Of a stretch of DNA of 38,095 nt, positions 8,013 to 30,567 are shown in pieces (within the stretch, counting starts at the first letter, position 1; the number at the start of each line of letters is the position of its first letter). Under the pieces are notes generated by a model, which was given only the letters and a program-made list of their open reading frames with translations, did no database searches and was not told the origin of the DNA. The stretch covers positions 85,569 through 123,663 of the forward strand of contig BJGQ01000001.1 in the NCBI GenBank assembly GCA_014190575.1, written 5' to 3'. Source of the DNA: Bacteroidota bacterium. GTDB taxonomy: Bacteria > Bacteroidota > Bacteroidia > Chitinophagales > UBA10324. The translations under genes were made by a program, and so were the position numbers.

Positions 8013-10547
8013 TTATTTCTCTTTCGAGCAACATTCCTTTTTACCGCCTTCTTTGCAACAACCTTTGTTACCTTCTTCTTTGCACTTTCCGTTATTTGAG
8101 CAATCAGATTTGCATTTGTCTTTGCATTCGTTGCAACAAACACCTCCGCTCATTTCTCCTCCCTTCTTGCAGCAATCCATTTTTTCATGTCCTGTACAAT
8201 TACCCATTTCTCCCTTGCACTGTTCCATACCTTCCTTGCAATGCATTGAATCTCCCATCATCATTCCACCATCTTTGCAGCAATTCATTCCTTCATGACC
8301 TTCGCAATTCATTTTTTTACCTTCACATTCGCCCTTCATCATACCATGATCACAGCATTCCATTTTATTCATGCAGGCATCATCACCACCATTGCTCACA
8401 CTCGAATTAATAAATGGATGTCCAATTGATGGCGCAATTACTAAACTCACAATCGACATCAACTTAATTAAAATATTCATTGAAGGACCTGAAGTATCTT
8501 TAAATGGATCGCCAACAGTGTCACCTGTAACAGAAGCTTTATGCGGTTCTGATTTTTTATAAAAAGTTTCTCCGTTTATGACCGCACCTTTTTCAAAACT
8601 CTTTTTTGCATTGTCCCATGCACCACCTGCGTTTGATTGAAACATTCCCATCAACACACCTGACACAGTAACACCGGCTAACATTCCACCCAGCACTTCA
8701 GCACCAAAAGTGAATCCAACAATAATTGGAACTGTAATGGCAATTGCACCTGGTGCCATCATTTTTCTTAAAGAAGCATTTGTAGATATTGCAACGCACT
8801 TATCATATTCAGGTTTTCCGGTTCCTTCCATAATTCCCGGAATCTCACGAAACTGGCGACGAACTTCTTCTACCATTGCCATCGCAGCTTGTCCCACTGC
8901 AGAAATTGCAAGTGAGGAAAATATAAACGGAATCATTGCACCAATAAACAATCCTGCCAGTACATCTGCCTGGTAAATATCAATTTTATTAATGCCGGCG
9001 ATACCAACGAATGCAGCGAACAAAGCGAGAGATGTTAATGCAGCACTCGCAATTGCAAATCCTTTTCCGGTTGCAGCGGTTGTGTTTCCAACAGCATCGA
9101 GTGTATCTGTTTTTTCACGAACTTCTTTTTCCAACTCACTCATCTCTGCAATTCCTCCTGCATTATCAGCTATTGGACCGAATGCATCTATTGCTAATTG
9201 CATTGCAGTAGTTGCCATCATTCCGGCGGCAGCTATTGCTACACCATACAAACCTGCGAACATAAATGAACCATAAATTCCGGCTGCTAAAACAATGATT
9301 GGTGCAACGGTTGATTCCATTCCCACTGATAATCCTGCAATAATATTTGTAGCATGTCCGGTTGATGATTGACGAATGATAGAATTTACCGGACGCTTGC
9401 CCATTGAAGTATAATATTCAGTTATCAAACTCATTAATGTTCCAACCACTAAACCAAGAATCACCGCACCAAAAACTCCCATCTTACTGAACTCATGTCC
9501 ACGAAGGTTTAAAGTATCAGGCAACAACCAATTGATTAAAAAATAACTTGAAATAGCAGTGAGAATAATAGCACCCCAGTTTCCTTTATTCAATGCCCCC
9601 TGAACCACTGAAGTAGATGCTTCAGCCGTGTCTTTTATTTTCACGAAAAAAGTTGAAATCATTGAAAAAATAATTCCCATTCCGCAAAGCATCATTGGAA
9701 GAAGTATTGGCGATAAGCCATTGAAATGATCAATCAATGGAATTTGTTTTCCAAATTCATCTGTCGAAGTTATTTCTCTTCCCAAAACCATAGTAGCAAG
9801 AATGGTGGCAACGAATGACCCAAACAAATCGGCCCCCATACCTGCAACATCACCAACATTATCACCTACATTATCAGCAATGGTGGCAGGGTTGCGCGGA
9901 TCATCTTCAGGTATTCCGGCTTCTACTTTTCCAACCAGATCAGCACCAACATCAGCGGCCTTTGTATAAATTCCTCCACCCACACGGGCAAAGAGTGCGA
10001 TGCTTTCAGCACCCAATGAAAAGCCTGTTAAAACTTCCAATGCGCGTTGCAATCCTTCTGCTCCGTTACCATCAGCGAACATATAATATAACCCAATGAA
10101 TAATCCACCTAAACCGAGTACTGCCATTCCTGTAACTCCCATTCCCATTACCGAACCTCCGGTAAAAGATACATTCAATGCTTTGGCCAAACTTGTGCGT
10201 GCAGCATGTGCAGTACGAACATTAGCCTTAGTTGCTATGCGCATTCCAATGTATCCTGCGGTTGCTGAAAACACAGCGCCGATAATAAATGCAACTGCAA
10301 TCAGCGGGCTTGAATCAGGGTTTGAATAACCAAGAACAGCCAACAGTATTGCGGCAATTACTACAAAGTAACCAAGCACTTTCCATTCAGCTTTTAAAAA
10401 CGCCATAGCGCCTTCGGCTATGTAGGTCGAAATTTCTTTCATGCGTTCGTTGCCCGCATCTTGTTTTGTAACCCACGCCGATTTCCAGGCGGTAAACAGC
10501 AATGCAACAATTCCGAAACACGGTATCAGATAAAAAAACGGACTCAT
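8013..10547 (-). CDS. hppA: K+-dependent membrane-bound pyrophosphatase with Cys-rich C-terminal tail
   Basis: Ion pump that couples pyrophosphate hydrolysis to H+ and/or Na+ export. The multi-helix core (about residues 1-715) carries [20 protein letters not shown], the substrate motif DDPRNPAT at 215-222 and [19 protein letters not shown] at 487-496 has Ala, not Lys, after GNTT, which in this family marks K+-dependent enzymes. The usual TM6 glutamate of Na+ pumps (DLFES) is Gly here (DLFGS), while a Glu is found at 181 in GAESIALF. This resembles the Flavobacterium-type H+ pumps described with the gate Glu in TM5, as I recall the literature. From residue about 716 to 844 the protein is a hydrophilic tail with 22 Cys, many Met, Gly and Lys; see findings. 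Core enzymes normally end near residue 700-760. Monocistronic, with its own promoter and terminator. Confidence 0.95.
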
Positions 10548-10568
10548 TTCTTTTTAAATTTTGGTCGG

Positions 10569-10599
10569 CAAAAATAACTTTCATCACCTCATATCCAAA
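10569..10599 (-). promoter_or_regulatory. Bacteroidota-type promoter of hppA
   Basis: On the minus strand TTTG (10599-10596), a 19-base spacer and TATTTTTG (10576-10569) match the consensus TTTG-N19-TAnnTTTG exactly. The predicted start site gives a leader of about 15 bases to the ATG at 10547. Confidence 0.8.
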
Positions 10600-11807: not shown

Positions 11808-13529
11808 ATGAAAAAAATAACATTTATTATTTACTTTTCATTGATTACTTTTTTTTGTTCTGCTCAAAGTTATCAATGGCGAGCAATTAATCCGGGGCTT
11901 TATTGTAACGATTCAACATTTTGGCAAAATTGTGATGTCGAAAACATGGTGGTAGATACTTTAAGAGATTTGATATGGTTACAAGGTTTTTTTGCAGGAG
12001 GCGATACAATACAATCGTCAAACTTGATTGGATATAATGGTGCAAGTTTTATAACTGCCAATAATATTGATACAACTTTTGGCAATAATACAACAGATTT
12101 ATTAATGTATCAGGGTAAAATAATTTTCAGTTCAAAATACTCAGTTTATAGCTACGATGTTGATTCACAACATATAACGCTTCTTGGAATATTCCCAACC
12201 AGCTCCTACCCCGGAGGTTTGTGTTTAAGTGAATACAATGGAGACTTAATAGTTGCAGGCCAGTTTTTTGCAATAAAAAAACCTGGTGGCTTATGGGTTA
12301 CTACCGGTAGCATTGCCCGATGGGATGGCAATGATTGGCATACAATGGATGCCGCAGGGCTTGGCTTATGGGGCTCTGGCACCATTGTACATAAAATGCA
12401 GGTTTATAATAGCAAACTCTTTGTGGGTGGTAATTTTCAAAAAGCAGGAAACATTGATGCGTGGGGCATCGCATCATGGGATGGTAGTAACTGGGCATGT
12501 TTGTGCAATGGAACAGGTAGATATGGTATAGCACATGAACCACCAAGCCAAAATTGGAATGCTACAATAAGTGACATTGAAGTCATTAATGAAAAATTAT
12601 ATATTGTTGGCAATTTTGATTCAGTATGTAATATAAAAACTTATCTTGCGTATTGGAATGATACTTTTTGGGTTGGAAATATTTATCCTTATTATTTTAA
12701 TTATAAAATTAAATCATTTGGAAGTCACATAGTTATTACCAGTGGAGATGCACTCCCTCAAATATTTTATTGGAATGGAATATCACCTATTGGTGTTGAT
12801 TCAGGATTTAGTAGTGGGAATACCTTTTTAAGCCTCATTAATTTTCACGACACATTATATGCCGCAGGTTATATGCAATACTCAGGTAACACACCATTAT
12901 TTAATTTTGCACGGTTAGTACCTGATAGTTTAATAAATATAAGTGCAGGAATATGCAGCGGAGAGAGTTATAATTTTAATGGAGTACTATTGGATTCAGC
13001 CGGAGTATATACAGATACTTTAATAGATGCATCAGGGTTAGATTCAATTGTGGTTTTAACATTAAATGTAACTTCTGTTACATCTTCAATCAGTATAAGT
13101 AATGATACGATTACAGCCACAGGCAATGGAATAATACAATGGTACGATTGTGATAGCCATCAGATAATAGTAGGTGCAGCCGGAAATACATTTGTTCCAT
13201 CAGTAAGCGGAAACTATGCTGCCATCGTTTCCAACAACAATTGCGCTGATACCACAAATTGTATTAATGTAATTGCGGGAGTATCTAATTTGTCAGGTGA
13301 AAACAGGCAAATAAAAATTTATCCTAATCCTGCAAGTGAAAAACTTACAATCAGCAGTAAGCAATCAGAAGAAAAAATAGTGGTAATGGATATTACAGGA
13401 AGAATGGTATTTCAAGCAAGCACTAACACCCCGGAAATAGATGTAAGCAGTTTAGCAAGCGGCATGTACTTGTTGCGAGTAGAATTTAGAAATGGAGATA
13501 TTGCAGTTGGTAAGTTTGTGAAAGAGTAA
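11808..13529 (+). CDS. Secreted protein with T9SS type A C-terminal sorting domain
   Basis: A 573-residue protein with a Sec signal peptide (MKKITFIIYFSLITFFCSAQ). The large middle part (about residues 40-370) repeats a pattern of YNGDLIVAGQF, SIARWDGNDWHTM, NSKLFVGGNF, IASWDGSNW and EKLYIVGNF. This looks like short blades of a beta-propeller of the 'WDG/GGNF' kind found in many Bacteroidota surface proteins. About residues 370-480 form Ig-like beta strands with SGESYNFNG and NVTSVTSSISI. The last 75 residues form the sorting domain: KIYPNPASEKLTIS, then VMDITGRMVFQ, ending SGMYLLRVEF and GKFVKE. It should be exported by the T9SS and anchored or released at the surface; ligand or enzyme activity is unknown. 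It is flanked by a 26-base direct repeat; see findings. Confidence 0.85.
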   Translation: MKKITFIIYFSLITFFCSAQSYQWRAINPGLYCNDSTFWQNCDVENMVVDTLRDLIWLQGFFAGGDTIQSSNLIGYNGASFITANNIDTTFGNNTTDLLMYQGKIIFSSKYSVYSYDVDSQHITLLGIFPTSSYPGGLCLSEYNGDLIVAGQFFAIKKPGGLWVTTGSIARWDGNDWHTMDAAGLGLWGSGTIVHKMQVYNSKLFVGGNFQKAGNIDAWGIASWDGSNWACLCNGTGRYGIAHEPPSQNWNATISDIEVINEKLYIVGNFDSVCNIKTYLAYWNDTFWVGNIYPYYFNYKIKSFGSHIVITSGDALPQIFYWNGISPIGVDSGFSSGNTFLSLINFHDTLYAAGYMQYSGNTPLFNFARLVPDSLINISAGICSGESYNFNGVLLDSAGVYTDTLIDASGLDSIVVLTLNVTSVTSSISISNDTITATGNGIIQWYDCDSHQIIVGAAGNTFVPSVSGNYAAIVSNNNCADTTNCINVIAGVSNLSGENRQIKIYPNPASEKLTISSKQSEEKIVVMDITGRMVFQASTNTPEIDVSSLASGMYLLRVEFRNGDIAVGKFVKE

Positions 13530-13533: not shown

Positions 13534-14005
13534 CCTGTTCGCCTCTGGAGGAAGAAATGAAATACACAACAACCCACAAATCGCAAGAGCACCCGTGTCC
13601 CACACCGCTCAATCCACTGGCGGCGGGAGACACAGGCGAGGGGAAAGCGTTCCATTGTATAGTGTCAACAGTCCATAAACAATCAACCACAAACTTTCCC
13701 GAGTCGAACAACAACTTTAAGGTATCAACATCAATCAATAGAGCCATGTCAACAGTATATAGGCAATGCAATCAAAACTTTCTGCAATCGAATAAAGTCC
13801 ATAGCAAATAATTACTTCACTTTCCGTCATCGACCTACAACTATATCACAACGACCACCAACTTTCAGCAAGTGAATTTTTAAAATAAAAAAATATATTC
13901 TATCCTTTCCACCTCGGTGCGCGTACACATGCACCAGTACTTTATATTAGCGAGGTTACGAACCGAATAGATCAACACACACCAAAACGAAAAGAAACCA
14001 GCAAG
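13534..14005. other. Intergenic stretch with a GC-rich hairpin segment; no gene supported
   Basis: About 470 bases without a credible gene. Near 13595-13633 a GC-rich block can fold: GTGTC-CC pairs with GG-GAGACAC and, inside it, CCGC pairs with GCGG. TGAAATAC at 13558 and the following CACAAA and ATCG resemble 11661 onward, so sequence likeness to copy 1 seems to continue beyond the gene end. The rest is A-rich and rich in CAAC-like triplets. An 84-codon open frame at 13557-13811 has no family features and I do not call it a gene. Confidence 0.5.
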
Positions 14006-14013
14006 TATATTTG
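14006..14013 (+). promoter_or_regulatory. Possible -7 box for the radical SAM gene
   Basis: TATATTTG matches TAnnTTTG and ends 20 bases before the ATG at 14034. No -33 TTG is seen at the expected distance. Confidence 0.4.
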
Positions 14014-14033
14014 CACCGTTGCAACAACAATCA

Positions 14034-15338
14034 ATGGCTTCACTCACACAGGTTCCGAATTTAGTTTACTCAGATGCGCAGGGAAATATTTTTGATGCGC
14101 CCGGCCTGTGGATGAGCGGCCGTAGCGGCAACGATTTTGTGGCAATGACCGCTGATGATTTTATAGAACTGCCCGATGGAAGCGATTTATACACTCTTGA
14201 AGGCAGGCACCCCATAGGTTTCGATAAAGAAACCAACGAGCCAACAGTTTACAAAGATGGTTTTGCAGTAGGCGCGCAAATGGCTCCCGCACATACCATG
14301 TTTTATTTATCAGCTTTTGAAACCAATGCTAATGCGCCTACCCTCCCGCTTTTTGCTTACACCGCAGTTGGCTGGTGGAACGGAAAATTTTATGTACCCG
14401 CCATCCGCATTGATAATGATAAACGACAAGAACCGAGAGATTTTGATCGTCAACTGATTGAACGGAATGTTCATTCAATGATTAAAGATTTCCCAAACAA
14501 TCGTTTGCTCAAACACATTGGCGAAACATGTGCTCTCACCTATTGTTGCCCTGCCGCTCGCAATCATTTCATGCACCGGTTCGAGGCTCCCATTCCAACT
14601 TCACCTGCGTGCAACAGTAATTGCATCGGGTGCATTTCATTTCAACCCACAACTGAAAATATTTCAAGCACACAGGAGCGCTTAACATTTAAGCCCACGG
14701 TTGAAGAGATAACTGAATACACCATTCCACACCTTCAAAATGTAAAATCAGCCATAGTAAGTTTCGGTCAGGGATGCGAAGGCGAACCACTGCTCATGTG
14801 GGAAACAATCCGCGATGCAATTGTAGAAATAAGAAAACTAACAAAAAAAGGCAGCATTAACATGAATACAAATGGCAGTATGCCTAAAGCAGTTGATGCA
14901 TTGTGTAAGGCAGGCTTAAATAGTATTCGTGTAAGTTTGAACAGTGTTCGTGAAAATATTTACAACGCATATTATCTGCCTAACAATTATAAATTCAGTG
15001 CGCTGAAAGAAAGTATAAAAGTGATTCGCAGTTATGGCGGATGGGCATCGCTCAACTACTTTGTTTTTCCCGGTATTACAGATGAGGTTGAAGAATACGA
15101 AGCACTTCGGAAATTTATTCGTGAAACTGATGTACGAATGATTCAGTGGCGCAACTTCAATATTGATCCTGATTGGTACCTGGAAAAAATAAAATATTAC
15201 CCTTCCGAAAAGGTGATCGGCATCAATCGCATGATGAAATTATTGAAAGAAGAATTTCCACATTTATACTATGGATATTTTAATCCACCTATCGAAATTA
15301 TAAATAAAAACCTTCAGGAAAAAGCACCATTGGTGTAA
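14034..15338 (+). CDS. Uncharacterised radical SAM protein
   Basis: A 434-residue protein without signal peptide. The 4Fe-4S/SAM motif CNSNCIGC (C193, C197, C200, CxxxCxxC) starts a radical SAM barrel of about 230 residues. Later strands fit: IVSFGQGCEGEPLL (GGE-like), INMNTNGSMP, GLNSIRVSLNSV and LNYFVFPGITD. The first 190 residues are unusual: a region with GLWMSGRSGNDFV and LYTLEGRHPIGFD, then an aromatic stretch (FAYTAVGWWNGKFYVPAIRI), then a cluster C166, C171, C172 and H178/H181 just before the barrel. I cannot place this region in a known family. The ATG at 14034 is preferred to an in-frame TTG five codons upstream. No precursor peptide or partner gene is seen next to it; its neighbours are T9SS cargo genes. 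The fold call is sure, the reaction unknown. Confidence 0.88.
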   Translation: MASLTQVPNLVYSDAQGNIFDAPGLWMSGRSGNDFVAMTADDFIELPDGSDLYTLEGRHPIGFDKETNEPTVYKDGFAVGAQMAPAHTMFYLSAFETNANAPTLPLFAYTAVGWWNGKFYVPAIRIDNDKRQEPRDFDRQLIERNVHSMIKDFPNNRLLKHIGETCALTYCCPAARNHFMHRFEAPIPTSPACNSNCIGCISFQPTTENISSTQERLTFKPTVEEITEYTIPHLQNVKSAIVSFGQGCEGEPLLMWETIRDAIVEIRKLTKKGSINMNTNGSMPKAVDALCKAGLNSIRVSLNSVRENIYNAYYLPNNYKFSALKESIKVIRSYGGWASLNYFVFPGITDEVEEYEALRKFIRETDVRMIQWRNFNIDPDWYLEKIKYYPSEKVIGINRMMKLLKEEFPHLYYGYFNPPIEIINKNLQEKAPLV

Positions 15339-15566
15339 CCTGTTTTTTTTATTTGCCCTTCATAAAAGGCTACTCAAAATATCTTATCCACAACTTAGTT
15401 TTTATTAATGGAAATGCAAATTGCAATTTCATAAAAGTATTACCGTTTTTATAATATCCATGTTAATTTCTCAATGAAATAAATAGGGTTGATTTTTTTT
15501 AATTGTATTGGATTCATTTTTTCACGCAGAAGAAATTTTAATAAATCAATTAAAACAACTGCACAA

Positions 15567-17345
15567 ATGAAGAAAATAATCGTCGCCTTGTTTTGCATTA
15601 TTGCCTTAAATGCAAATTCACAAACCACTCAGCGATTAGTTTTGGTTGAAGAAGTTACAAATGCATCGTGTACTCCATGTGCCTTGTCGAATCCGGCATT
15701 TGAAACTTTAATGAATGCAAATTCAACCAAGGTTATTCCAATAAAATATCACGCTTCTTTTCCCGGTTATGATCCTTTTTATTCAGCTAATTCTGCTCAA
15801 AATCAGGCTCGTTCCGTTTACTATTCAGTAACTGCTGTTCCAACTGCACGATTAGATGGCGCAGGAACATTTTTACAAGATGTGAATCAGGCTTCTATTG
15901 ATGCAGAATATGCTGTACCAGCAACAATGAGCATTGCACTTGCATGGAAGTACTCTTCTGATGCCGATTCAATTTATATAACGGTGACATTTAAAGCCTT
16001 ACAAGCAATAAACGGAACTCTGATAGGAAATATTGCGGTTATAGAAAAAGCAGTTCACTACGATGTAGCACCTGGTAGCAATGGAGAAAAAGATTTCACA
16101 AATGTGATGCGTAAACTTCTTCCATCGCAAACGGGTGTTCCGCTTCCAACATCTATGGTAGCAAATCAAACATTGACATTTACTACTGGAATGCTTATTA
16201 CTTCAGGATTCAATGATATCAGTCAGATTGGAGTAATTGCTTTTATTCAAGACAATGCAACAAAAAATGTTAAACAAGCTGCATATGCCGCAACTGCTTC
16301 TGTAGTTCCTGTTAATCCGATTATTCTTCTTTCTTCAAAGGGAAATCCGGTTTGTTCAAATAATGGCTCAGTTAACATTTCCGTAATGGGCGCAAGTGGC
16401 GCTTATTCTTATCACTGGTCTAATGGTGCAACCACTCAAGATATATCAGGTCTTGCTGTTGGTACATATGCTGTTACTGTTACCTCAGGAATTAAAACTG
16501 CAACCGCCTCTTATAATTTGACTCAAGGTGCACTTGCTACTCCAACAAGCGTTATTACAAATGGAATTACTTCATGTTCTACTGCCTTGAATTGGGCAGC
16601 ATTATCGGGCGCTTCTTATTTTCAGGTTAAATACAAAACTGCTTCATCGAGTATTTGGTCGAGCCCGATAAATGTATCGACTACAAATTATGTTTTTACC
16701 GGACTTTCAGCTTCCACACAATATAATTATTCAACAGCAGGCGTTTGTGCAAACGGAACTGCGGGTGCAAGCGCAAGTTATACTGCAACAACTTCTTCCT
16801 GCACTATACCTTCAAACACTGCAGCAGCAAATATTACAGCATCTACTGCACTTATAAGTTGGACTGCTGGATGTAATGCATCATCCTATGAAATTCAATA
16901 TATGATTTCAGGTGGAACTTTGTGGACATCGGCTATATCATCATCTACTTCAAAGACATTGACAGGTTTAATGGCCTCAAAAATTTACCAATATAAAGTA
17001 CGAACTTTATGTGGCGCTGTATATACGAGCTTTTCAGCTGTAAAAACTTTTGTAACACCCGCCGCCCGTATTGAAAATATAAATGAAGAAGTTGCAGTAA
17101 ATATTTATCCAAACCCATTTGAATCAACAATTAATATTTCAATTCCTGAAAGCATGAATTCAGATCAAGAATTTTCAATCGTATTATTTGATATTTTAGG
17201 AAGGAAAATTTTAGATTTAAAAAATGTTCAATTTGAATTAGGTAATGCAAAAATTGAAACATCAAATTCATTGGCTCCGGGAATTTATCTTTTAGAAATT
17301 AAAGGAATTGGTATTGACATAAAAAAACAACTAGTTAAATCATAA
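15567..17345 (+). CDS. Omp28-like exported protein with CxxC thioredoxin-type motif and T9SS sorting domain (paralogue 1)
   Basis: A 592-residue protein with a signal peptide (MKKIIVALFCIIALNANSQ). The Omp28/thioredoxin-like domain (about 20-255) has CTPC at 35-38 in [16 protein letters not shown] and VPTARLDG, where VPT is the usual cis-proline site. A SprB-like repeat follows (about 270-320: YSYHWSNGATTQDISGL, GTYAVTV), then two fibronectin type III-like domains (about 325-510) and a T9SS type A sorting domain (NIYPNPFESTINIS to the end). The start at 15567 is chosen because the signal peptide begins there; in-frame codons upstream add a non-signal leader. Likely a surface or outer-membrane thiol protein. 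It is followed by a close paralogue after 75 bases. Confidence 0.87.
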   Translation: MKKIIVALFCIIALNANSQTTQRLVLVEEVTNASCTPCALSNPAFETLMNANSTKVIPIKYHASFPGYDPFYSANSAQNQARSVYYSVTAVPTARLDGAGTFLQDVNQASIDAEYAVPATMSIALAWKYSSDADSIYITVTFKALQAINGTLIGNIAVIEKAVHYDVAPGSNGEKDFTNVMRKLLPSQTGVPLPTSMVANQTLTFTTGMLITSGFNDISQIGVIAFIQDNATKNVKQAAYAATASVVPVNPIILLSSKGNPVCSNNGSVNISVMGASGAYSYHWSNGATTQDISGLAVGTYAVTVTSGIKTATASYNLTQGALATPTSVITNGITSCSTALNWAALSGASYFQVKYKTASSSIWSSPINVSTTNYVFTGLSASTQYNYSTAGVCANGTAGASASYTATTSSCTIPSNTAAANITASTALISWTAGCNASSYEIQYMISGGTLWTSAISSSTSKTLTGLMASKIYQYKVRTLCGAVYTSFSAVKTFVTPAARIENINEEVAVNIYPNPFESTINISIPESMNSDQEFSIVLFDILGRKILDLKNVQFELGNAKIETSNSLAPGIYLLEIKGIGIDIKKQLVKS

Positions 17346-17420: not shown

Positions 17421-19229
17421 ATGAAAACCTTACTCTACTTTGTTTTTCTTAGTCTTTTTACATTTGAAAGTATCGCGCAAACCCAACGATTAGTTCTTGT
17501 TGAAGAATTTACTAATGCATCATGTGGACCGTGTGCATTATCTAATCCTGCTTTTAATGCGCTAATGACAGCAAATGCCACTAAAGTTGTTGCAATAAGA
17601 AATCATACAAGTTTCCCAGGATACGATCCTTTTTACGCACAAAATACAGTTCAAAATCAGTCCCGAACAATTTACTATCAAGTTACCAATGTACCTACAG
17701 CTCGGATGGATGGAGCAGGAGTTTTTTTGAGTGATGTCAATCAAACTTCGATTGATGCGGCGTATGCTGTTGCTCCAATATATAGCATAAAGATTAACTA
17801 CCATATTTCAAATGACAATGATTCGCTTTATGCGACCGCAACGGTTAAAGCATTAAGTTTTAACACAGGAACTTTAAAAGCACACATTGTGGTTGTTGAA
17901 AAAATGATATCCCTCACTACGCCCCCGGGATCGAATGGTGAAACAGATTTTCCGATGGTGATGAAGAAAATGCTTCCATCTGAAGCAGGCACTTCGCTAC
18001 CGGGAACAATGTTTCCAGGCGATTCAGTAGTAATAAATGTTGGTTGGTTATTGGCAAATGTCTTTAACATTAATCAGTTAGCGGTAGTGTGTTTTGTTCA
18101 GGACAATTTAAATAAAAATGTGAAACAGGCCGCTTATGCGCCAACTCCATTTAGCGGTCCACCACCTACCCCACCAACCATTGCTTTAAATACATTAACA
18201 AATACTATGTGTGGTTCAACAGGTGCAATAAATATTAATGTAAGCGGAGGAACTACGCCCTACTCTTATATATGGTCTAACAACGCAACATCCGAGGATA
18301 TTTCCGGTTTAGAAACAGGAACATATTCTGTAACCGTTATAGGAGGAACAGCAACCAGTGTTGCGACCTATACAATTCAGCAAGTATTATCACAACCAAC
18401 TATAGATTCTATGAGCGCAAAAACATCGTGCTCCATAAAAATGAATTGGACAGTTGTTAACGGTGCTGCTACCTACAAGGTAAGATACAAGACGACATCA
18501 AGTTCTACCTGGAATACAGAAATAATTGCAGGAAATATAAACAACTATGTTTTTAATGGATTAGCATCAGGAACTACATATAATTTTGAAGTTGCCGCGT
18601 GTTGCTTAAATGGATACAATAGTGGATTTGTTGGTACAACCGATTTTACAAATGAATGCAAAATGATTACATCATCTTCTGTAACCATTAATTCAAGCAC
18701 AAGCGCAACTGTTTCTTGGGTGGCACCATGTTATTCAATTGGTTACAGAATTATTTATAAAATGACAAGCTCATCAGTTTGGTCATCTGCATTTATTTGG
18801 GGAACTACTCAATTCACAATTACAAATTTGCTACCTAACACTTCTTATGAATATAGATTGCGTAACCGATGTGGCGATCCGCCAAATGTAACAGGATGGA
18901 CTTCGGCAATAAGTTTTACAACACCGGCTATGCGAATTGAAGACGAAAATACAATTGTAAATTCAACTAATACTTCAATGTTAGTTTACCCAAATCCTAC
19001 ATCCGATTTATTTAACCTTTCGGGTTCCTTTAATGAAAACAATGTGGAAGCTCAAATTAAAATAGTTAACACACTTGGTCAGATTGTTTTTCAATCAATA
19101 ATTACATTGGATAAAGGGACTTATGACTTACCTATTTCTCTTCCATCAACAATTAGTGATGGGTTGTACTATGTAAATGTTTTTTCAAATAATGAAAAAC
19201 AAGAATCCCAACTTTTGATTCAACGATAA
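17421..19229 (+). CDS. Omp28-like exported protein with CxxC thioredoxin-type motif and T9SS sorting domain (paralogue 2)
   Basis: A 602-residue protein with the same layout as the gene before it: signal peptide ending ESIAQ, Omp28/thioredoxin-like domain with CGPC at 35-38 ([16 protein letters not shown]) and VPTARMDG, SprB-like repeat ([17 protein letters not shown]), two fibronectin-like domains and a sorting domain ([16 protein letters not shown]). CGPC is the classic thioredoxin active site, while the first copy has CTPC, so the redox potential may differ. N-terminal halves are very similar, C-terminal halves less so. The pair looks like a tandem duplication. A terminator follows 20 bases after the stop, and none separates the two genes, so they may be cotranscribed. 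Confidence 0.87.
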
Positions 19230-24186: not shown

Positions 24187-24693
24187 TTAGTTTGTCCAGG
24201 TTGATGTGCAAACATCAGAAAGACCAGAACCAGTATCAGTTACTGTATAGCTCCAGGTAATAGTATGTCCATCAGTGCTGATAGTACCAGTTCCGCTAAC
24301 TCTGAAACCATCATTATCAGGCTCTTGAGTTGGAATTGTAATGGTTGTTCCGCTGATAGTTGCATTAACAACATTTACGAAGCTATTCCAAACATTAGTG
24401 ATTTTAACATCAAAAATACCAGATCCTGAAGTTACACTTACACCATAAGAAGCAGAACCTGAAAGGCTGCAACCATCTTGTGCAGTCCATGCACCTTTAA
24501 ATTTAGCTCTGTTTTCAGTACTGCAATCAGTTCCTTCATAACCAGAAGCACAATTACAAGTACCATCAACGCATGTTCCGGCGTTTAAACAAGTTACATC
24601 TTTACAAGGGTCAGTACAAGATGTGTAAAAAGTTACGATAGCCAATGAAAACACCATTAAGATGCCGGCTGTTAAAATGCTTAGTTTTTTCAT
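24187..24693 (-). CDS. Lipoprotein with one EGF-like domain
   Basis: A 168-residue protein with a lipoprotein signal peptide (lipidated Cys about 26, in FYTSC). Residues 30-57 form an EGF-like module: cysteines 30, 35, 41, 46, 48 and 57, with spacing C-x4-C-x5-C-x4-C-x1-C-x8-C and CNCASGYEGTDC, the usual EGF end. The rest (about 62-168) is a Thr/Ser-rich beta-sandwich-like domain with SYGVSVTSGSGIFDVKI and STDGHTITWSYTV. It resembles small lipocalin-like lipoproteins of Bacteroidota, but I cannot name a family. It has its own promoter. EGF modules are mostly known from animals, but this simple lipoprotein-EGF layout recurs in aquatic Bacteroidota. Confidence 0.82.
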   Translation of the reverse strand: MKKLSILTAGILMVFSLAIVTFYTSCTDPCKDVTCLNAGTCVDGTCNCASGYEGTDCSTENRAKFKGAWTAQDGCSLSGSASYGVSVTSGSGIFDVKITNVWNSFVNVVNATISGTTITIPTQEPDNDGFRVSGTGTISTDGHTITWSYTVTDTGSGLSDVCTSTWTN

Positions 24694-24729
24694 TTTTTAT
24701 TTATTTGTTTTTGTTTAGAATTTAAGCTG

Positions 24730-24759
24730 CAAAGATATTTTTTCATTTGAACCAATCAA
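24730..24759 (-). promoter_or_regulatory. Promoter of the EGF-like lipoprotein gene
   Basis: On the minus strand TTG (24759-24757), a 19-base spacer and TATCTTTG (24737-24730) fit the Bacteroidota consensus. The leader to the ATG at 24693 is about 30 bases. Confidence 0.7.
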
Positions 24760-29034: not shown

Positions 29035-29103
29035 TTTTCTAACCTGATTATTGGTCATTGTTCTCTCCTTTCATTGCTTATTTTAGCGCTCCCAAAAATC
29101 ACA

Positions 29104-30567
29104 ATGGCAGAAATTTATCCCGGCTTAGAAACTATTGATAAAACCCACGACGAAAGTCGGCAGGGCGAAGCACTTTCAATTGCAGAACCGGAAACAAAAA
29201 AATCAAACGGCAAATTCTTGTATGTTGAAAGTTATGGTTGCGCTATGAACTTCAGCGACAGCGAAATCATTGCCTCGATTATGGTTACAGAAGGATTTTC
29301 TGTTACCAAAAATCACAATGAAGCTGATGTTTTATTGATTAACACTTGTTCCATTCGCGAAAAAGCAGAAGACAAAATCCGATTACGAATCAGCGAACTG
29401 AAATCAGTAAAGAAGAAAAAACCTGATGCGCTCATAGGCATTATGGGTTGTATGGCAGAGCGATTGAAAACTCAATTGCTCGATGAAGAAAAAATGGTTG
29501 ACCTTGTAGTTGGCCCTGATGCTTATCGTGAATTGCCTGCATTGGTTAAAAGCGCCGAAGACGGGACCAAGGCGATAAATGTTTTACTGAGCCGTGAGGA
29601 AACTTACGCCGATATAAATCCTGTGCGTTTAAACAGCAATGGAATTGTTGCTTTTATTTCCATCATGCGCGGATGTGATAACATGTGTTCATTTTGTGTG
29701 GTACCATTTACTCGCGGTCGTGAGCGCAGTCGTGATGCTGAAAGTATTGTTCGCGAAGCCGAAGATTTATTTAACAATGGTTATCGTGAAGTGACTTTGC
29801 TCGGACAAAATGTTGACAGTTATAAATGGAAAAGCCCCACCCTAACCCTCCCCCAAGGGGAGGGAGAAGCAACTTCTGAAGAAGTGGTGACTTTTGCAAA
29901 TCTGTTAGAGATGGTTGCGAATGTGAATCCATTATTGCGTGTTCGGTTCAGTACTTCTCACCCGAAAGATATAACGGATGATGTTTTGTACACGATAAAA
30001 AAGCATCACAACATTTGTAAGTACATTCATTTACCTGTTCAGTCTGGAAGTTCACGGGTTTTGGAATTAATGAACAGAACTTACAATCGTGAATGGTATA
30101 AAAGCAAGGTTGATTCAATCAGAAAAATTCTTCCCGATTGCACGATAAGCGCTGATATTATTTCTGGATTTTGTACTGAAACCGAAGAAGAACATCAGGA
30201 AACTTTAAGCATGATGGAATATGTGCGCTACTCAATGGCTTACATGTTTACATACAGCGAGCGACCAGGAACGCTTGCTGCTCGCACATTAAAAGATGAT
30301 GTCCCGGAATTAATAAAGAGTCGCCGCTTGCAGGAGATTGTTGATTTGCAACATGTGCATCAGGCTGAAGATAATAAATCGGAACCGGGAAAAGTTTATG
30401 AAGTTTTAGTGGAAGGAACCAGCAAACGCTCGAAAGAACAATTGTTCGGAAGAAACTCGCAGAACAAAGTTTTAATTTTTCCAAAAGGAAATTTAAAACC
30501 CGGCGACTATGCAAATGTGAAAGTGATTAGTGCAACTTCTGCTACATTAATTGGGGAAGTGATTTAA
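29104..30567 (+). CDS. miaB: tRNA-2-methylthio-N6-dimethylallyladenosine synthase
   Basis: Radical SAM methylthiotransferase that converts i6A37 of tRNA to ms2i6A37. The N-terminal cluster-binding domain has C46 ([13 protein letters not shown]), C82 ([14 protein letters not shown]) and C116 (MGCMAER). The radical SAM CxxxCxxC is C191, C195 and C198 in [11 protein letters not shown], followed by [17 protein letters not shown] domain ends the protein ([19 protein letters not shown]). The ATG at 29104 is preferred over an in-frame TTG ten codons upstream. At 487 residues it is slightly longer than average. Residues 244-255 come from an inserted palindromic repeat; see separate entry. It heads the run miaB, sigma-54 activator, lptE, hypothetical, secG. 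Confidence 0.96.
29846..29864. repeat. Palindromic repeat inserted in frame within miaB
   Basis: CCCTCCCC-CAA-GGGGAGGG is a perfect 8-bp GC-only-type stem in AT-rich coding DNA. It encodes part of [12 protein letters not shown], a peptide type known from in-frame REP-like intergenic repeats. It sits between GQNVDSYKW and the strand starting TFANLLEM, a loop that is variable in MiaB. Confidence 0.8.

Follow-up and report, generated by a model that had tools for sequence, protein, structure and literature searches.

The window analysed here (the whole stretch of DNA, 38,095 nucleotides long) contains, at positions 14034..15338 of the plus strand, an open reading frame that starts at ATG 14034 and encodes a radical SAM protein of 434 amino acids, followed by a stop codon. 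An alternative start, the in-frame TTG upstream at 14019, is less likely, because close relatives align from ATG 14034. Full-length homologues at 55-91% identity to the window protein show that this ORF is a genuine gene under strong constraint. Immediately ahead of it, a promoter-like element of the Bacteroidota -7 type, TATATTTGC (14006..14014, plus strand), ends 19 bases before the ATG; we take the Bacteroidota -7 consensus to be TAnnTTTG. The element is identical in two close relatives (loci L031 and L033) amid otherwise diverged upstream DNA, and its retention there suggests that the gene is probably transcribed from its own promoter. The TAnnTTTGC pattern is not enriched in the window, with 4 matches against 13 expected by chance. 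Two further such elements, at 10568-10576 and 24729-24737 (both minus strand), lie just before an H+-pyrophosphatase ORF and the ORF at 24187-24693.

The protein can be divided into three regions, all encoded on the plus strand: a predicted β-rich N-terminal domain (residues 1-135; 14034..14438), a predicted helical linker (residues 139-182; 14448..14579) and a radical SAM partial barrel (residues 183-415; 14580..15278), the last delimited from Pfam, the structural model and its structural neighbors. The CNSNCIGC motif, from which the sequence-only reading had recognized a radical SAM protein, occupies residues 193-200, and Pfam Radical_SAM (PF04055) matches residues 187-354 well above its cut-off (E 1.1e-14; 55.4 bits versus 29.5); nothing else emerged from a Pfam scan of the protein up to E 1. 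Membership in the radical SAM superfamily is thus supported both by this profile and by a CX3CX2C motif present in 116 of 116 homologues. Motif and homologue alignment identify C193-x3-C197-x2-C200 (14610..14633) as the ligands of the SAM-binding [4Fe-4S] cluster. Farther along the barrel, the stretch G245-Q-G-C248-E-G-E-P252 (14766..14789), which we take to be the GGEP-type SAM-binding motif, encloses an invariant cysteine.

Conservation was counted over 116 distinct sequences among 143 collected, each with more than 380 aligned residues. Eight candidate ligand positions are invariant throughout this set: H161, C166 and C172 in the linker (codons 14514-14516, 14529-14531 and 14547-14549), the three cysteines of the radical SAM motif, H233 (14730..14732) and C248; a further position, C291 (14904..14906), is Cys in 115 of the 116. 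The arrangement HX4CX5CX20CX3CX2C recurs in 116/116 homologues. The sequence-only reading had pointed to a cluster of C166, C171, C172 and nearby histidines just before the barrel; C166 and C172 bear this out, but C171 is Cys in only 8 sequences, H178 and H181 are His in 6 and 8, and the conserved histidine proves to be H161, which that reading had not named. The window protein has no Cys before residue 166 and none beyond residue 291, and among the 116 homologues no conserved Cys column lies past 291 (one at 394 is occupied in 40/116). Mean conservation is 0.73 for residues 1-60, 0.81 for residues 61-138 and 0.83-0.88 for residues 193-380, such that residues 61-138 are conserved almost like the barrel.

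The suggestion that the long N-terminal part belongs to no known family has also held up. Residues 1-160 match no Pfam family in the window protein, and a Pfam scan of 26 members gave two weak matches, each in a single member (E 0.027 and 0.16). Comparison of the domain with PDB sequences uncovered no relative (one match at E 1.2); Foldseek gave a best E of 0.24, and in VIA no chain out of 997 reached Z ≥2. Predicted alone, however, the domain reached a pLDDT of 78.0 in its best model and 47.5-56.5 in the other four, and with models of this quality the null results from fold searches do not demonstrate a new fold. Run against 395 genomes, with only 9 first-look candidates scored in many of them, a profile of the domain matched exactly the 14 genomes already obtained with the whole protein, giving a single match in each that fell within the same gene; in the genomes searched, every match to the domain thus came with this barrel.

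The subfamily is conserved over its full length across Chitinophagales families and Kryptonia. An order-level search gave matches in 63 of 198 genomes, or 61 genomes with the gene once two weak partial matches (G129 and G169; 27-30% identity) are left out and one fragment (G096) is kept. Sampling of the phylum at 1e-20 yielded 14 of 395 genomes, comprising the window's own and 13 of the same order, and in the Kryptonia class the gene is carried by 5 of 100 genomes, including those of loci L045 and L086, which a contig search had also brought up. Similar sequences presumably exist in other phyla. Mean identity between the Kryptonia members and the Chitinophagales groups is 56-60%, and in a quick tree of 45 sequences, midpoint-rooted and without an outgroup, the Kryptonia branch falls among Chitinophagales families, a placement that would fit lateral transfer. 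Each genome holds one strong copy; second matches, seen in four genomes, are only 26-29% identical. No relative was found in the plasmids, phages and viral contigs searched; PHROGs returned a general radical SAM family and nothing more specific, and PADLOC two weak matches (E 0.027 and 0.04).

We modeled the protein with AlphaFold2 from an alignment (A1) of the window protein and the best 80 of at least 568 matching loci in a contig search that used the window protein as its only query. The model is of good overall quality (pLDDT 86.5, pTM 0.87), with low confidence at residues 191-204, the cluster loop, and 247-249, the C248 motif. In VIA, the top match is NifB (Z 14.5, rmsd 3.6, 205 residues), followed by Mycobacterium tuberculosis LipA (Z 14.4, rmsd 4.7 Å, 253 residues, spanning model residues 137-432). 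Both of these neighbors hold auxiliary clusters, although the ranking is nearly a tie, because Z values of 12.5-13.6 were obtained for PFL-AE, BlsE, RlmN and viperin; PFL-AE and viperin are not known to have an auxiliary cluster. Foldseek on the full model ranked HydE and PFL-AE first.

Comparison with curated families agrees with the earlier expectation that no characterized radical SAM subfamily would match over the full length: no curated Pfam or NCBIfam family fits, and the window protein, for which alone scores were compared with cut-offs, reaches no NCBIfam threshold (MoaA 33.4 versus 284, NrdG2 30.7 versus 131 and NifB 10.7 versus 343.65 bits). Among the matches listed for the 81 members of A1 (25 of 32 families), MoaA and NrdG2 lead. 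MoaA gives the top score, over residues 192-376, and, according to PMC5352715, carries a C-terminal CX2CX13C cluster motif; besides falling far below the cut-off, the window protein lacks this motif and, having no Cys after residue 291, would have no C-terminal cluster, so identity with MoaA was rejected. Membership in the SPASM/twitch group was set aside for want of a Cys-rich C-terminal domain. In Tes (GDGT-MAS), Cys and His residues ligate an N-terminal auxiliary cluster (PMC9433317), a precedent for histidine in this role, and 30 of 81 members match Tes weakly in NCBIfam; the window protein differs in that it has neither a rubredoxin part, there being no Cys before 166, nor the C-terminal cluster. 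NifB is met again in a weak sequence match over residues 185-315 (E 0.024) and in weak NCBIfam matches of 5/81 members. The K1 ligands of MthNifB include H31 and C115, its N-terminal ligand is C18, and H31 and H42 provide precedents for histidine ligation (PMC9692996). C18 stands 20 residues ahead of the first radical SAM cysteine, C38, and C172 of the window protein stands 21 ahead of its own. In contrast, the counterparts of H31 and C115 in the alignment are P186 and N276; with the K1 ligands unmatched and a score of only 10.7 bits, identity with NifB was likewise rejected.

The auxiliary cluster of LipA is bound by an N-terminal CX4CX5C motif, according to PMC5352715, and the LipA of the window's own genome reads CX4CX5CX14CX3CX2C. 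The window family shares the spacings of 4 and 5 ahead of CX3CX2C, and LipA/LIAS structures, though scoring close to other radical SAM families, give the longest VIA alignments listed (240-269 residues); the window family differs in a histidine in place of the first cysteine, in 20 rather than 14 residues up to the SAM cluster, and in the additional N-terminal domain. Two matched spacings can agree by chance, and the third does not agree. These likenesses raise the idea of a LipA-like sulfur insertion, in which an auxiliary cluster would be sacrificed as the sulfur source for thiolating unactivated carbons of an acceptor. In the Kryptonia locus L045, moreover, the gene is the last member of a run on one strand that starts with genes for pyruvate dehydrogenase E1-beta and E2; the layout of L086, which was not annotated, is similar, and four gene families in this place are common to L152 and L153. 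However, M19 and M24 peptidase and DUF4921 genes separate the dehydrogenase genes from the radical SAM gene in L045, and the fifth locus of the class, L154, has no such run. All 16 genomes tested for it encode a genuine LipA that scores above the curated cut-off; 13 of these genomes, including the own genome and five of the Kryptonia class, also carry the window family, which indicates that the family is no replacement for LipA. CX4CX5C occurs in 0/116 homologues, the LipA profile TIGR00510 is absent from the matches of the window protein up to E 1, and hhalign gave a probability of 0.3%, a weak test given a shallow alignment (Neff 1.8). On these grounds identity with LipA was rejected, and we consider a LipA-like sulfur insertion very unlikely.

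As judged from the alignments, the linker motif thus stands approximately where LipA and NifB hold auxiliary-cluster ligands, while keeping the full ligand set of neither. It is possible, if doubtful, that the SAM cluster is the only cluster of the protein and that C166 and C172, with C248 or C291, bind zinc or serve a structural or redox role. The linker invariants amount to two clustered cysteines and one histidine only, which would suit such a site; H161 and C166, five residues apart in the predicted helix 157-169, would also project their side chains about 140 degrees from one another and hence not from the same helix face. Against this, the position of these residues directly ahead of CX3CX2C resembles that of the Fe-S ligands in LipA and NifB.

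Inspection of the gene neighborhoods suggests one possible metabolic context. In 34 of the 61 carrier genomes, an arginase-family (ureohydrolase) gene lies upstream on the same strand and ends 7-1545 bases away, the distance being 7-8 bases in two same-genus genomes; its product matches PF00491 and scores 149.7 bits, below the agmatinase cut-off of 174.3. A ureohydrolase (E ≤1e-60) is present in 54/61 genomes with the radical SAM gene versus 53/137 without it, counts that ignore relatedness. Within the best 80 of at least 568 matching loci, 68 have at least 3.5 kb upstream, and in these a same-strand arginase-family gene precedes the radical SAM gene in 45, a small membrane-protein gene in 50 and either in 51. 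Such an association might mean that the enzyme matures the ureohydrolase or takes part in its pathway, which would concern guanidine, agmatine or another guanidino compound of this kind. Yet CcmF (45/80) and CcmE (43/80), encoded on the opposite strand beyond the ureohydrolase and membrane-protein genes (from Pfam annotation of two loci), are nearly as constant in these best 80 loci as the hydrolase (50/80), so the hydrolase block may be inherited gene order. Seven genomes carry the radical SAM gene and no ureohydrolase; in family f17 the hydrolase occurs in 3/8 carriers and also in 6 non-carriers. The arginase-family gene of the own genome (C2) is unlinked, on another contig, and all that the five Kryptonia-class genomes encode is a relative at 35-38% identity, located elsewhere. 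A role tied to the ureohydrolase therefore seems quite unlikely.

A survey of the neighborhoods of homologues, a check proposed alongside the sequence-only reading, found ureohydrolase, small membrane-protein and cytochrome c maturation genes often nearby, but no constant neighbor outside families f1 and f20 in the loci examined; the ureohydrolase link holds in two families. Twenty further regions were inspected (5 from f1, 3 from f15, 8 from f17, 1 from f21 and 3 from the Kryptonia class), of which two, both f1, have the arginase-family gene. Ten annotated neighbors in these regions varied, including IF-3, serine hydroxymethyltransferase, a pseudouridine synthase, an amylase, a laccase-like protein and a sigma factor; in the layouts of L146 and L071, an overlapping frame was picked in place of the radical SAM gene. 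In many of the best 80 loci, a single copy or a tandem pair of the small membrane-protein gene (L039:5401-5985 and relatives) precedes the radical SAM gene, and three copies scanned gave no Pfam match above cut-off.

The immediate neighbors in the window belong to the type IX secretion system (T9SS), as had been remarked from the sequence. Por_Secre_tail is found in the adjacent ORFs 11808-13529, 15489-17345 and 17421-19229; the latter two, 42% identical to each other, encode cargo proteins with fn3, SprB and Por_Secre_tail domains, and 17421-19229 also matches Omp28. This setting invites the proposal of a RiPP or protein maturase, for example for the adjacent cargo. Relatives of the two downstream cargo genes do adjoin the gene in its three nearest relatives (both lie downstream of it in L031 and L033, and one or more in L032), but in none of the other loci among the best 80 of at least 568 matches; because the association recurs only in these 3/80 loci, the T9SS genes characterize the genus and are not shared by the family as a whole. 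The SPASM cysteine set is missing, and the gene has a promoter-like element of its own. Nor was a recurrent precursor-like gene found beside it, the sequence-only reading having noted none in the window: 80 loci yielded 755 short ORFs of 20-80 aa close to the gene, and no same-strand, precursor-like family recurs among them, the families found in more than 6 loci being pieces of the small membrane-protein gene (20) and two that are opposite-strand by their listed member (12 and 10). We regard a maturase function as extremely improbable. Separately, the small ORF 13557-13811 was rejected as a precursor peptide since it overlies a repeat present at three other places in the genome. The intergenic repeat itself, at 13585-13665 upstream of the gene, has three more partial copies of 87-92% identity in its own genome.

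Taken together, the conserved residues and their placement suggest a stand-alone enzyme of an uncharacterized radical SAM subfamily that holds an auxiliary metal site, most likely Fe-S, a reading to which we assign a probability of about one half. That it stands alone is supported by the single strong copy per genome and by the absence of a partner common to all lineages. In this enzyme, the CX3CX2C cluster would cleave SAM to give the 5′-deoxyadenosyl radical, which would abstract hydrogen from a substrate held between the barrel and the N-terminal domain. C166 and C172, together with H161 and/or C248 or C291, may ligate an auxiliary Fe-S cluster, or with lower probability a different metal, near the active site, where this cluster could bind the substrate, pass electrons or donate sulfur; such roles are known or proposed for the auxiliary clusters of MoaA, TYW1 and LipA. 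Its substrate would most likely come from general metabolism, either as a small molecule or as a group bound to a protein, a RiPP precursor being less probable. A bolder version, in which a linker cluster bound by His/Cys/Cys and the cysteine of the GEP motif catalyze a transfer or coupling of an as yet undescribed type within ordinary metabolism, beneath an N-terminal domain of new fold, is in our estimate unlikely.

Many radical SAM subfamilies are uncharacterized, and a search of the open-access literature found no description of this one. The present subfamily, strongly conserved yet outside every curated family checked, offers a compact target for biochemistry with named residues to mutate (H161, C166, C172, C248 and C291). 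If an auxiliary cluster with histidine ligation is indeed present, the few radical SAM enzymes whose auxiliary cluster precedes the barrel would gain a further variant.

Two other ORFs of the window deserve mention. A membrane H+-pyrophosphatase (8013-10547, minus strand) matches PF03030 up to residue 704 of 844 and has a Cys-rich C-terminal tail that extends past the model. A second radical SAM ORF (29074-30567), MiaB-like by eye, contains an in-frame low-complexity stretch of 17 residues that resembles an inserted repeat.
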